NCBI RefSeq assembly: GCF_011927765.1
Contig: NZ_JAATJG010000001.1
Span: 220,792 to 284,791, forward strand
Reading direction: 5' to 3'
DNA: 64,000 bases
DNA from: Wenyingzhuangia aestuarii
GTDB taxonomy: Bacteria > Bacteroidota > Bacteroidia > Flavobacteriales > Flavobacteriaceae
This document shows positions 4,786-9,097 of the stretch, one piece after another; the stretch's first letter is position 1, and the number at the start of each line of letters is the position of its first letter. The notes under the pieces were generated by a model. It saw only the letters and a list, made by a program, of their open reading frames with translations, ran no database searches and was not told where the DNA came from. The position numbers and the translations under genes were made by a program.

Positions 4786-5544
4786 ATGGGAAAATATAAA
4801 AAAATGCCAATAGGTAAACGCTTATTGGCATATCCTTTATCTGTTGTTTTTTATTTAATGTATGCTATTTTGTTATGTGTATTTCATCCTTTACAATGGA
4901 TGGCATTAAAAGTAGGTGGCTATACAGCACATAAAAAAATAGTAGATATTTTAAATTGTTGTTTAACGGCTTCTTTATACATTTTAGGAACTCGTGTAAA
5001 ATTTATAAATACCTATAAGTTTGATAATTCAGTACCAAATATTATTGTTTCGAATCATCAAAGTACACACGAAATATCTCCTTTAGGATGGTTTTTTAGA
5101 GATTTGCATCCTAAGTTTGTGGCTAAGCAAGAATTAGGAAAAGGAATTCCAAGTGTCTCTTTTAACTTAAAACATGGAGGATCTGCTCTAATTGACAGAA
5201 AAGATGCTAGACAAGCATTGTCTGCAATTGGTGCTTTTGCAAAGTATTTAGAAAAAAACAAGAGAGCTGGAGTAATTTTTCCGGAAGGAACAAGAAGTAG
5301 AGATGGACAACCTAAACGTTTTTCGGAAAATGGGGTAAAGATTTTAACCAAGTTTGCTCCATCGGCAACGGTTATTCCTGTAACCATTAACAATTCTTGG
5401 AAGCTGTGGGAGTATGGTCAATTTCCAATGAATATTGGTGTAAAAATGACCATAGAAACACATCAACCTATTAAGGTTGCAGACCAATCTTTTAATGAGT
5501 TGTTTGCAGAGGTTGAAGAAAAAGTAAAGAGTAAAATAATATAG
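4786..5544 (+). CDS. plsC: 1-acyl-sn-glycerol-3-phosphate acyltransferase (PlsC family)
   Basis: Transfers a fatty acyl chain to lysophosphatidic acid, or to another lyso-lipid, at the inner membrane. The 252-residue protein has an N-terminal hydrophobic helix pair (residues ~13-45) and the family blocks in order: block I as NHQSTHE (an H-x4-E version of the usual HX4D), a block around FVAKQELGKGIP, block III FPEGTRSRDG and block IV VIPVTIN. Glutamate in place of aspartate in block I occurs in other PlsC-type enzymes. It is the last gene of a three-gene plus-strand run and is followed by a strong hairpin terminator. Whether it is the main PlsC or a paralogue such as an aminolipid acyltransferase cannot be decided here. 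Confidence 0.9.
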   Translation: MGKYKKMPIGKRLLAYPLSVVFYLMYAILLCVFHPLQWMALKVGGYTAHKKIVDILNCCLTASLYILGTRVKFINTYKFDNSVPNIIVSNHQSTHEISPLGWFFRDLHPKFVAKQELGKGIPSVSFNLKHGGSALIDRKDARQALSAIGAFAKYLEKNKRAGVIFPEGTRSRDGQPKRFSENGVKILTKFAPSATVIPVTINNSWKLWEYGQFPMNIGVKMTIETHQPIKVADQSFNELFAEVEEKVKSKII

Positions 5545-5613: not shown

Positions 5614-7161
5614 TTAATCCCCTGGATTTTGTTCTGCATTTATATTTGCAGATATCTCACTTTCGGGTATGGGTAATATTAGTTGATAACTCTCAATGTC
5701 AAGCACATTCACAGCTTTATGAAAAGCCTTTAAAATGTAGAATCTGTTTCCGTCTAATTTTAACTCCTTTGTCCATTGATTGAAAATAATCTCAGTCAAT
5801 TCATCTTTTGTTTTAGGCTCAGTAATTGGAGTGTTAACGTTGGTTTTGTTTAAGTTTTCAATAGCTAAATTAGCTTTGTTGGTTTGGTTGTAAGCTTGAG
5901 CTAATGTTAATAAGACTTCTGTATAGGTTCCAAAAACAAGTTCATCTTTTTTAATAAATCTATTAAAATTAAAATCTATAGAATTGTTTTCAAGTGTGTT
6001 TAAAAAGACACTATAAATATTATTCTCCAATGTAGGGATTGTAATAGTTGTTAAAGTTTCAATGGTTTTAGTATAGTTGTTCTGATTAAAATAAATTCTA
6101 CCTAAAAGGAATTTTGCAAAATCTGGAGAAACTTTTGAAATGTTTGAATCATTTTTTGGTAAATGTGCAATAGCAAATTCTAAGTCGATAATAATTTGCG
6201 TTTCAATTTCAGAAATACTGTTAAATGATGGATTGAAATCAGAAATATTACTTGCTGTTTTTAAGACTAATGGAACTTTTCCAAACCAATTTATAAGAGA
6301 TGCGTATGTATAAGCTCTTAGTATGTAGGCTTGTGATAGAATTGTATTTAAACCATCAATATCATTGGGATAAGCTTTGTGAGCATTTTCTAATAACTGG
6401 TTTGCTTTATAAATGGTTGTGTAATATTCATTCCACAATTTACTCAAGGTTTCATCTTTGGAAGTAAGAGTATGATTTTTAATATCTGCAAAAGAACCAA
6501 AGACTTTGTCTTCTATTTGGTTTGTATATAAAGCATCTACTAAAATATGTTGTTGTTCTGTATTGATTAAACTATTGTAAACGCTTTGTAGTGCAGCTTC
6601 AACATCTTTCTTTTGTTGATCAAATCCCTCTGAAGGTAATTCATCGATAACTGTTGGTTTAATAGGAGTAATATTGTTGAAAGAACCATTGTTTAACTCT
6701 AATACATCGTTATCATCATTCACATTGACAAGCGAGAAATTAAATTTTCCAGAGATATTATATTTCTCATCTTTAGTAATGGTTAATGTTCCACCTTTTT
6801 TAGTGATGTAAGCATTTTGATTATCTAAATAAGAGGCAATTGCAATCGATTTTTGATTGAACAATTCTTCAGAAAAATAAATGGTATCCCCTTCAATATT
6901 AATAGGATTGTTTATAATTTCATAATTCCCTTCTATAGTATCGTTAATTCCTATTAATAAGGTTTCTGTATTATTTCCAAATGTTATTAAATACTCATCT
7001 ACTATTTTGTAGGCAAAAACAGAGTCAGTAGTAAATATATTTCCGTTGATCGTGATTTCGGTATCTAATGCAGGTAAATCGGTAGGAGTGTTTTCTTTTT
7101 CCTCATTACAACTTAAAAGAAGTAAGAGGCAAGTAAAAATTAGATAGCATGTGTTTTTCAT
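5614..7161 (-). CDS. SusD/RagB-like lipoprotein with extra N-terminal DUF6252-like domain
   Basis: SusD proteins are surface lipoproteins that capture glycans or peptides and sit on a SusC TonB-dependent channel. The signal peptide ends in the lipobox LLSC with Cys18. Residues ~30-165 form a beta-rich domain with the pattern seen in DUF6252-type lipoproteins: GTLTITK, then ISGKFNFSLVN, then LELNNGSFNNI. Residues ~180-515 are SusD-like: helix DVEAALQSVYNSLI, a TPR-like core (AYILRAYTYASLINWFGKVPLV; FAKFLLGRIYFNQNNY) and the hallmark C terminus QLILPIPESEISANINAEQNPGD in two adjoining parts. The ending shows the SusD part is intact. No SusC gene is adjacent on either side, which is unusual, so the partner must be elsewhere or absent. 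The ligand is unknown. Confidence 0.85.
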   Translation of the reverse strand: MKNTCYLIFTCLLLLLSCNEEKENTPTDLPALDTEITINGNIFTTDSVFAYKIVDEYLITFGNNTETLLIGINDTIEGNYEIINNPINIEGDTIYFSEELFNQKSIAIASYLDNQNAYITKKGGTLTITKDEKYNISGKFNFSLVNVNDDNDVLELNNGSFNNITPIKPTVIDELPSEGFDQQKKDVEAALQSVYNSLINTEQQHILVDALYTNQIEDKVFGSFADIKNHTLTSKDETLSKLWNEYYTTIYKANQLLENAHKAYPNDIDGLNTILSQAYILRAYTYASLINWFGKVPLVLKTASNISDFNPSFNSISEIETQIIIDLEFAIAHLPKNDSNISKVSPDFAKFLLGRIYFNQNNYTKTIETLTTITIPTLENNIYSVFLNTLENNSIDFNFNRFIKKDELVFGTYTEVLLTLAQAYNQTNKANLAIENLNKTNVNTPITEPKTKDELTEIIFNQWTKELKLDGNRFYILKAFHKAVNVLDIESYQLILPIPESEISANINAEQNPGD

Positions 7162-7196: not shown

Positions 7197-7967
7197 TTAT
7201 AATAGTTTAAATTCATCTCTATCTTCTAAAAAACGAAACTGATTTCTGGTTTTTGTTAAGGTGTTTTTTTGGAGTGTAATTTGTCTTACAACAGCTTGGT
7301 TAGAACAGTGTGTTAACAATTCTCCTAGAGGACCAATTACTTGGGAATCTCCTTGGTAATTTAAATGGTTTCCATCTATTCCTAATCTGTTTACGGCCAC
7401 TACATAGCTCATGTTTTCTATAGCTCTAGCTGTTAATAAGCTGTTCCATGCAAAAGCTCTTTTGGCTGGCCAATTGGCAACATAGATAGCAATGTCATAA
7501 TCATTGGTGTTTCTAGACCAAACAGGGAATCGTAAATCGTAACAAATAAAAGGTTGTATTTTAAATTCTTTATAGTTTATAGGGGTTAAGTTGCTTCCTG
7601 AAGTGTAAACATCATTTTCTTTACCATAAGTAAATAAATGTTTTTTATTGTAAACAGATTGGATTCCTTCTGGGGTTACAAATATAAACCGATTAAAGTA
7701 ATTGTTGTTTTCTTGAATACTTAAAGATCCACAAATAGCACAATTTAATTCTTTGGCTTTGGCAAGCATCCAGGTAACAGAAATTCCATCCATAGGTTCT
7801 GCAATTTTAGCAGGTTCCATACTAAAACCTGTGCTAAACATTTCTGGTAGCACAATTAAATCTGTAGTTATGTTTGCAAGCTGCTTGTCTAAAAAATCAA
7901 TAGTGGCTGTGCTGTTCATCCATTGAATGTCTGTTTGTACAAGCGTTATGTTTATTGAATTTTGCAT
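7197..7967 (-). CDS. Omega-amidase (nitrilase superfamily, YafV/NIT2-like)
   Basis: Hydrolyses omega-amides such as 2-oxoglutaramate and 2-oxosuccinamate, the keto acids left when glutamine or asparagine serve as amino donors. The nitrilase catalytic triad is visible: Glu42 in LPEMFSTGFS, Lys109 in YNKKHLF and Cys142 in ICYDLRFPVW. The 256-residue length and the MEP/DG pattern after the Glu fit the YafV subgroup. Its start overlaps the 3' end of the aminotransferase gene by 16 bases, indicating cotranscription. The pairing is the known coupling of glutamine transaminase K-type enzymes with omega-amidase, which pulls transamination forward, for example in methionine salvage. Confidence 0.92.
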   Translation of the reverse strand: MQNSINITLVQTDIQWMNSTATIDFLDKQLANITTDLIVLPEMFSTGFSMEPAKIAEPMDGISVTWMLAKAKELNCAICGSLSIQENNNYFNRFIFVTPEGIQSVYNKKHLFTYGKENDVYTSGSNLTPINYKEFKIQPFICYDLRFPVWSRNTNDYDIAIYVANWPAKRAFAWNSLLTARAIENMSYVVAVNRLGIDGNHLNYQGDSQVIGPLGELLTHCSNQAVVRQITLQKNTLTKTRNQFRFLEDRDEFKLL

Positions 7968-9097
7968 AGTATTTCTGTAGCTTTAATAATTGTTTCATCT
8001 GTTTTGGCAAAACAGAATCTAAGAACTTTTTCATCTAAATGATTCACGTTAAAAACGGAAATTGGTATGGTGGCTATTTTAAATTCAATAACCAATCTTT
8101 TGGCAAAATCAACATCGTTTTCTTGCGTAATGTTGTCGTATTTTAACAACTGAAAATAGGTTCCTTTAGAAGGAATGTAGCTAAACTTAGCATCTTTAAT
8201 TCCGTTTAAAAACAAATCTCTTTTGTTCTGATAAAACGTAGGTAAATAATTATAATTGTTGGAGTCTTTAATAAAAGTAGCAAATGCTTTTTGATAAGGT
8301 GTATTAATGCTATACACATTAAATTCGTGAACTTTTACAAACTCATCCATTAAGGGTTTTGGAGCAGCACAATATCCAATTTTCCATCCTGTGTTGTGAA
8401 ATGTTTTTCCAAAAGAAGCAATCACAAAACTTTGTGCTTTTAGAATAGGATATTTACAAGCGCTTTGATGAATGTTTCCATCAAAAGTCATGTGTTCATA
8501 AACTTCATCACTTAATACAATAATATTAGTGTTTTTAATTAAGTTTTGTAGCGCTAGCATGTCTTGATCCTCAAACAAAGTTCCGGTAGGGTTTAGCGGA
8601 GTGTTTAAAATAATCATCTTAGTTTTTGATGTTATTTTAGAAGCTACTTCTTGCCAATTTACTTTGTAATTAGGGTAGTGTAGCTGAATAAAAACTGGAA
8701 CTCCTCCAGATAATTTAACCACAGGTTCATAACTATCAAAAGCAGGTTTAAATATAATTACTTCATCATTTTTATGTATAAAACAAGTAATAGCATTAAA
8801 CAAGGCTTCGGTAGCACCTGCTGTTATGGTAATTTCGTTTTCAGGATTGTATGTAGATTGATATAGCGTTTTAATTTTTTGTGCAATTACAGTTCGCAAT
8901 TCAAGATCACCACGCATATGTGCGTATTGATTGTGCCCTTCTAACATAGCTTTGCTAACCAAATTTTGTAAAACAGTTGAGGTTTTAAAATTTGGAAAAC
9001 CTTGAGATAGGTTAATGGCATTGTGTTCATTTGCCAAGCCACTCATGGTGGTAAAAATACTTTCTGGCAAATTGGGTAGTTTGGAATTGATAGTCAA
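7952..9097 (-). CDS. Methionine (glutamine-dependent) aminotransferase, PLP fold type I
   Basis: A class I/II PLP aminotransferase of 381 residues. The cofactor lysine is Lys231 in SFGKTFHNTGWKIGYC, with NPxNPTG-type substrate loop NTPLNPTG (residues ~165-172), the aspartate that binds the pyridine nitrogen in LSDEVYEHM, and the C-terminal arginine in LRFCFAKTDE. Aromatic and His residues near the N terminus (NQYAHMRGDLELR) resemble YbdL/MtnE-type enzymes that transaminate 2-oxo-4-methylthiobutyrate to methionine or act on kynurenine. The downstream overlapping omega-amidase gene supports glutamine as amino donor. Specificity is inferred from this context. Confidence 0.88.
   Translation of the reverse strand: MTINSKLPNLPESIFTTMSGLANEHNAINLSQGFPNFKTSTVLQNLVSKAMLEGHNQYAHMRGDLELRTVIAQKIKTLYQSTYNPENEITITAGATEALFNAITCFIHKNDEVIIFKPAFDSYEPVVKLSGGVPVFIQLHYPNYKVNWQEVASKITSKTKMIILNTPLNPTGTLFEDQDMLALQNLIKNTNIIVLSDEVYEHMTFDGNIHQSACKYPILKAQSFVIASFGKTFHNTGWKIGYCAAPKPLMDEFVKVHEFNVYSINTPYQKAFATFIKDSNNYNYLPTFYQNKRDLFLNGIKDAKFSYIPSKGTYFQLLKYDNITQENDVDFAKRLVIEFKIATIPISVFNVNHLDEKVLRFCFAKTDETIIKATEILCKIQ

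Follow-up and report, generated by a model that had tools for sequence, protein, structure and literature searches.

The window analysed here is a 64,000-nucleotide stretch of the genome of Wenyingzhuangia aestuarii, a marine bacterium. On its minus strand, the open reading frame at positions 5614–7161 starts with ATG and encodes a protein of 515 amino acids, as taken from the ORF list and its translation. The protein is a lipoprotein made up of a signal peptide, a DUF6252 domain and a compact SusD core. The signal peptide (residues 1–18, positions 7108–7161), recognized by eye, ends in the lipobox LLLSC, the cysteine of which (Cys18) is invariant across the four aligned flavobacterial proteins described below. 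Cys18 is followed by N-E-E-K-E (residues 19–23, positions 7093–7107), a candidate surface-export signal: by eye, these residues run from polar to acidic, like the SDDFE signal proposed for Flavobacterium johnsoniae in the accessible part of PMC5080379, and it is because of this resemblance that the protein is predicted to be exported to the cell surface. The DUF6252 domain spans residues 37–164 (positions 6670–7053) and the compact SusD core residues 179–515 (positions 5617–6627). The core includes a shortened TPR3/TPR4 junction (residues 376–411, positions 5929–6036) and, as seen in the alignment, the conserved SusD C-terminus (residues 490–515, positions 5617–5694; SYQLILPIPESEI..N.NA.QNPG); all of these features lie on the minus strand.

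On the same strand, 35 nt upstream of the SusD-like gene, lies an amidohydrolase gene (7197–7967; NF007757, 273.7 bits for a cut-off of 249), which we take to be of the omega-amidase type and which is probably co-transcribed with the SusD-like gene. It overlaps by 16 nt with the gene for a methionine-type aminotransferase (7952–9097, minus strand; NF006569, 527.6 bits for a cut-off of 420), the first gene of the presumed operon. The other side of the site is bordered by a convergent acyltransferase gene (4786–5544, plus strand; PF01553, 62.6 bits).

The core is recognized by two Pfam families, PF14322 (SusD-like_3; 75.8 bits over residues 185–357, cut-off 27) and PF07980 (SusD_RagB; 32.5 bits, cut-off 23.1). 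The AF2 model, computed with 39 sequences, is confident over residues 179–515, with mostly high pLDDT except at the junction, and is less confident for the beta domain (residues 37–164). Compared by VIA-align, the core model matches 3jq1_B with a Z-score of 36.6 over 333 residues at 2.5 Å, and most of the titles of the 50 structures listed name SusD; the remaining ones are presumably SusD-type as well. Structure prediction therefore assigns a SusD fold to residues 179–515, and this agrees with the sequence-only reading, which had described a SusD-like lipoprotein anchored through Cys18. With 337 residues, however, the core is smaller than the solved chains among the VIA-align matches listed, which have at least 423. 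In the alignment with the 19 other SusDs of the same genome, the window protein shows insertions at residues 22–110 and 118–172, which excludes an ordinary SusD segment as the origin of its N-terminal part; behind its residue 394 it also lacks 59–117 residues that the other 19 carry. Smaller gaps are also present, the largest of them after residue 488 (6–64 residues). The spacing between the TPR3 and TPR4 landmarks is 66 residues in the window protein, compared with 124–239 in 94 ordinary SusDs. The junction at residues 376–411 thus takes the place of the long TPR3–TPR4 region, a usual SusD trait that is absent here. Judged from these alignments, the core is about 60–170 residues short between TPR3 and TPR4, a shortening that is newly recognized here.

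Several of the sugar contacts of SusD itself presumably fall in this TPR3–TPR4 region. According to the accessible part of PMC2954216, the N-terminal TPRs and the fourth TPR of BT_3984 are separated by about 100 residues that are largely unstructured, and the reduced part of the window protein corresponds to this region. The same part of that source proposes the TPR face and the C-terminal helices as the contact with SusC; these elements are retained in the window protein, which would thus fit a SusC-type partner. Residues 412–515 are the best-kept part of the protein, with 60% identity to its W. heitensis relative. On the other hand, in BT1762-63 the lid pivots on the segment that directly follows its lipid anchor, according to the accessible part of PMC7782687. 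In the window protein, about 150 residues (the two insertions at 22–110 and 118–172) occupy this place, and the pivot segment directly behind the anchor, a trait of SusCD lids, is absent.

Scanned alone, the domain behind the anchor matches PF19765 with 35.9 bits (cut-off 27.2; E = 9.9e-9) over residues 37–164, and the motifs TLTITK, ISGKFNF and NNGSFNNI all lie inside these limits; the proposal that a DUF6252 domain separates the lipid anchor from the SusD fold is thereby borne out. A six-frame search of the genome also finds PF19765 at 6670–7053 with 33.8 bits, over the cut-off; at E ≤ 1e-5, no other DUF6252 match occurs in the genome. Built from 20 DUF6252 domains of other genera, the profile A6, searched with --max against 4039 ORFs, matches the window ORF at 8e-9, with the next best match at 0.45; it gives no match to the orthologues L051 and L052, both within the same set. 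In profile–profile comparison (hhalign), the probability of a match between the four-species N-terminal alignment and DUF6252 is 93.8% (107 columns), compared with 0.1% for the SusD core as a control. One relative (G253) scores 20.8 bits with PF19765, below the cut-off of 27.2, and the relatives L009 and L038 give no match in the same scan. On these scores, only the window protein matches DUF6252 clearly; its relatives are less certain cases. DUF6252 is not listed in the whole-protein Pfam scan of the 515-residue protein: whole-protein HMMER scans with default filters miss the domain at 6670–7053, although it reaches 35.9 bits when scanned alone, and annotation may under-count weak domains of fused proteins.

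When the N-terminal domain is modelled alone from three sequences, the mean pLDDT is 53. A Foldseek search with this model returned nothing at E ≤ 0.001 (best match LpqH, 0.038), and no N-terminal-domain relative of solved structure emerged from the sequence search, the best matches (E = 0.018 and 0.0075) being short stretches of apparently unrelated proteins. Residues 1–161 also align nearly end to end with NF052634 (Riean_0653), at 42.8 bits for a cut-off of 57, in a family the best members of which are stand-alone frames of about 176–235 amino acids. A second match to this model in the same genome (C5:143250–143759, 2.7e-6, below the cut-off) lies in a 541-residue lipoprotein downstream of an ordinary SusC–SusD pair; we rejected it as a second fusion, as by eye the protein has no SusD core. 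In W. heitensis, adjacent Riean_0653-family matches are found at G003:C1:151426–152633, one with an internal TAG beside an open one.

DUF6252, a family with no assigned function, occurs at E ≤ 1e-5 in 27 of 80 related genomes. The 66 DUF6252 loci that we scanned hold 69 ORFs of 77–484 amino acids with one to four copies of the domain each (a few genes are counted twice owing to overlapping loci). These other DUF6252-like ORFs carry the domain singly or in tandem and none of the 69 contains a SusD core, in a scan with HMMER default filters, which miss the domain of the window protein itself and could let a weak fused copy escape. The only SusD matches within the 66 loci belong to the window protein and to the proteins of G186 and G253. 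A literature search, which reached few subscription journals, found no publication on DUF6252 by name.

In the current view SusD forms the lid of SusC, and polysaccharide utilization loci are usually recognized by their SusC/SusD pairs. In this genome, PF14322 gives 20 matches at E ≤ 0.001, including one that scores under the family cut-off, and by their coordinates 19 of the 20 (the low-scoring match among them) have a SusC gene right before them on the same strand. The usual order is thus that expected by the sequence-only reading, and the sole exception is the window gene. Neither the ORF list nor a search with the TIGR04056 profile revealed a SusC in the 64 kb window, so that the gene is indeed an orphan; on this contig, TIGR04056 has a single match over the cut-off, at a distance of about 84 kb. 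The genome as a whole has 21 SusC genes over the TIGR04056 cut-off, each with a SusD beside it. For two of the 21 no PF14322 neighbour is present, and in each case a SusD of PF12771 takes its place (276.7 and 298 bits). There is therefore no free SusC over the cut-off that could serve as a distant partner, which weakens the idea of a dedicated distant channel; 19 weaker TonB-receptor matches in the genome stay possible partners. At one of the SusC–SusD pairs of this genome, a sodium:solute symporter family protein (L228:5306–6643; PF00474, 30 bits) is encoded 7 nt behind the SusD.

Three flavobacterial relatives were found: in Wenyingzhuangia heitensis DSM 101599 (G003; 43% identity), Ochrovirga pacifica (G186/L052; 32%) and the Flavobacteriaceae genome G253 (31%). 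Among seven Wenyingzhuangia genomes, only the present one and W. heitensis give a match at E ≤ 1e-20. When 397 family genomes were searched with the query P0001, with three candidates scored in each, at least eight had a match at E ≤ 1e-18. Among the matches scored, those of this genome, G186 and G253 alone extend outside the ordinary SusD region, and the other five lie within residues 173–393; of two such loci inspected, that of G166 is directly preceded by a TonB barrel (PF00593), and that of G140 has an upstream ORF that is SusC-like by eye and has no Pfam match. In W. heitensis, Ochrovirga and G253, the 19 kb around the gene contain no SusC homologue, and since the relatives examined also lack SusC, its absence is not a local loss restricted to this genome.

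In W. heitensis and Ochrovirga, the gene occupies the same site as here, behind the amidohydrolase gene (at 35, 21 and 31 nt in this genome, W. heitensis and Ochrovirga, respectively) and next to the convergent acyltransferase gene. The site is empty in four of the seven Wenyingzhuangia genomes, in which the acyltransferase gene abuts the amidohydrolase gene with an overlap of 4–11 nt, and in G006 a different gene occupies it. In the nitrilase tree, this genome groups with W. heitensis (support 95); the support for Ochrovirga is 31, which is compatible with either gain or repeated loss at the site. The G253 copy is at another location, downstream of genes for a heavy-metal-domain protein and a 750-residue TonB receptor that is not of the SusC type. 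This receptor lies between two heavy-metal-associated-domain proteins (PF00403; L047:11209–14799); together they probably form a metal-uptake locus, next to which the SusD-like relative lies.

We then compared the window protein with SusDs from a control sample of 80 loci, run as a first pass of 64 loci (with an ORF in 63) and then the other 16 together with L111. SusC is directly upstream of 71 of the 72 ordinary SusDs of the 80-locus sample, and these cases are not independent, as several of the loci are near-copies; the exception, L058, has no SusC in its 921 nt upstream, and four loci with less than 600 nt upstream (L064, L087, L127 and L111) are outside this count. The same sample contains four compact SusDs, none of which has a SusC nearby. 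Altogether, six proteins combine a compact core with an extra N-terminal region: two from Wenyingzhuangia, those from Ochrovirga and G253, a 727-residue protein from Parabacteroides sp. Marseille-P3160 (L053:2741–4924) and a 658-residue protein from a Prevotella MAG (L054:4798–6774). In the landmark alignment of 101 rows (the six compact proteins, 94 ordinary SusDs and L111, a 129-residue fragment left outside the ranges), the TPR3–TPR4 spacing splits cleanly, being 62–83 residues in the six compact proteins and 124–239 in the ordinary ones, and the conserved arginine of the LRA helix lies at residues 250–479 in the former and at 79–194 in the latter. No SusC is present near any of the six genes, in the 10.9–64 kb around each; for L053 and L054, the stretches examined are 10.9 and 12.8 kb, with 2.7 and 4.8 kb upstream. 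Both of these proteins have a lipoprotein-like start followed by about 310–370 residues of different N-terminal sequence, in which no Pfam family is over its cut-off and no common domain could be named; the N-terminal region of L054 is weakly fasciclin-like (21.9 bits, cut-off 22). Finally, it should be noted that the compact form is rare. In a survey of 395 Bacteroidota genomes with the compact-core profile A4, only this genome matches at E ≤ 1e-42 among the five candidates scored per genome, a threshold set above ordinary SusDs at which distant members would be missed.

We may wonder at this stage whether the six compact proteins have one origin. A tree of 67 rows, computed under a site-heterogeneous model without the columns of the trait itself, unites them in one clade (bootstrap 96, SH-aLRT 96), and a simpler quick tree recovers the same clade at 92. 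The SH-aLRT support is 96 when either of the long rows, L053 or L054, is removed. For these trees, 17 of 84 rows were left out as near-copies, partial or far, and three more long rows were dropped in the long-row test. An alternative is that the six are independent truncations joined by long branches, the window protein being a fusion particular to a few Flavobacteriaceae. The end branches of L053 and L054 are indeed very long (2.5), and their scores with a four-sequence profile of the flavobacterial core (131.6 and 79.3 bits) do not separate them from ordinary SusDs. With the flavobacterial rows removed they join only each other, flagged as meeting long branches, and their N-terminal regions share no domain that can be named. 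In view of the support for the clade, which holds without the trait columns and with either long row left out, we regard independent truncation as unlikely, while giving it some weight, and a single origin of the six proteins as likely but not settled. The distant relatives of the same build point to a small branch of the SusD family that has been overlooked, and a rare compact SusD form, without SusC and with differing N-terminal regions, is the more general finding. A recent truncation is improbable, since the compact form is also found in the two Bacteroidales proteins. This bears on a further alternative, that the window gene is a decaying SusD paralogue that has lost its SusC and is eroding. 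Its patchy distribution in the genus, where the site is empty in four of seven genomes, would fit decay, as would its dN of about 0.52 between this genome and W. heitensis, compared with 0.115 and 0.082 for the neighbouring genes. Against this, the reading frame is open and the lipobox cysteine and the C-terminal motif are retained in four genomes, and dN/dS is about 0.28, a rough value because dS (1.9) is near saturation. The gene thus apparently evolves fast under purifying selection, and together with the well-kept C-terminal part this makes decay very improbable.

Two other alternatives concern the partner of the protein. It could act in trans, as a lid that docks on a distantly encoded SusC or other TonB-dependent receptor and shares it with the receptor's own partner. 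The conserved TPR face and C-terminus are retained, and the genome offers 21 SusC proteins and the 19 weaker TonB-receptor matches. Moreover, the G253 relative has a TonB receptor encoded upstream, between the two heavy-metal-domain proteins, but this receptor matches the SusC model only over residues 21–208 with 61.5 bits (cut-off 368), and no such receptor is present in the stretches around the other five compact genes. As all 21 SusC genes already have an adjacent SusD, and as the pivot segment is replaced and the TPR3–TPR4 region short, a lid in trans appears rather unlikely. The protein could instead serve the aminotransferase/amidohydrolase pair, for instance as a capture protein for an amide or amino-acid substrate. 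Its gene lies on the same strand, 21–35 nt behind the amidohydrolase gene, in three genomes, and in G253 another amidohydrolase-type gene is found 252 nt downstream of the SusD-like relative, with 70.8 bits to an NAD+ synthase model, far below its cut-off. The G253 gene, however, is of another subfamily and on the other side, the pair exists without the SusD-like gene in four congeners, and no such neighbour was seen in the ORF lists of L053 and L054. We consider such a service highly doubtful; the proximity of the pair may reflect a functional link or chance.

The reading that we prefer, with a probability of about 0.60 (lowered from 0.62 because the relatives lack an equally clear DUF6252 match), is that of an outer-membrane lipoprotein of a small SusD-derived lineage which is independent of SusC and in which the TPR core is a scaffold or capture module and not the lid of a transporter. 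The lid is set aside because about 150 residues replace the segment that is the pivot in BT1762-63 (accessible part of PMC7782687), and the absence of this pivot points to a TPR module for scaffolding or capture that is tethered through a stalk formed by the beta domain. The lipid anchor would be followed by the DUF6252 beta domain as a spacer or second binding module; as a stalk, this domain would hold the compact, TPR-rich SusD core off the membrane. The core would keep the SusD scaffold and the conserved C-terminus, minus most of the TPR3–TPR4 region, and would offer a scaffold or capture surface to a candidate partner or ligand other than SusC. We infer both the surface location and the independence from SusC in the cell. 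The observation made from the sequence, an orphan SusD-like lipoprotein with an additional N-terminal domain, is thus confirmed, and the interpretation placed on it is partly supported: the protein is a candidate binding protein, and the idea of a distant TonB-dependent channel is weakened. The shortening of the core at TPR3–TPR4, and the recurrence of the compact SusC-less design in Bacteroidales with other N-terminal regions, go beyond it.

Compared with the SusD/RagB family (PF07980, PF14322) and the SusCD lids, the window protein is alike in its fold, its C-terminal motif and its lipoprotein anchor, whereas it differs in that SusC is not encoded next to it, the anchor is separated from the fold by about 150 residues and the TPR3–TPR4 region is about 60–170 residues shorter. 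The idea of a spacer that lifts a functional module off the membrane is shared with surface lipoproteins of polysaccharide loci, for example those with DUF1735 (accessible part of PMC11216935), but in the window protein the module at the distal end is a SusD fold, and we noticed no polysaccharide locus in the surroundings of the gene. On a SusD without SusC, or an orphan SusD, our literature search, which mostly did not extend to subscription papers, found nothing, including in the accessible part of PMC8115612.

We would give even odds to a broader proposal, namely that a rare SusD lineage spanning Flavobacteriales and Bacteroidales has left the SusCD system, shedding the TPR3–TPR4 region and SusC and gaining an exchangeable N-terminal cassette (DUF6252 or others), to become a free-standing modular surface adaptor. 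The window protein joins DUF6252 to a fold of known use. If the proposal is true, a lineage without SusC, without the TPR3–TPR4 region and without a direct membrane pivot would distinguish the parts of SusD that serve the channel from those that serve something else, and would allow testing of whether the SusD fold can act alone.
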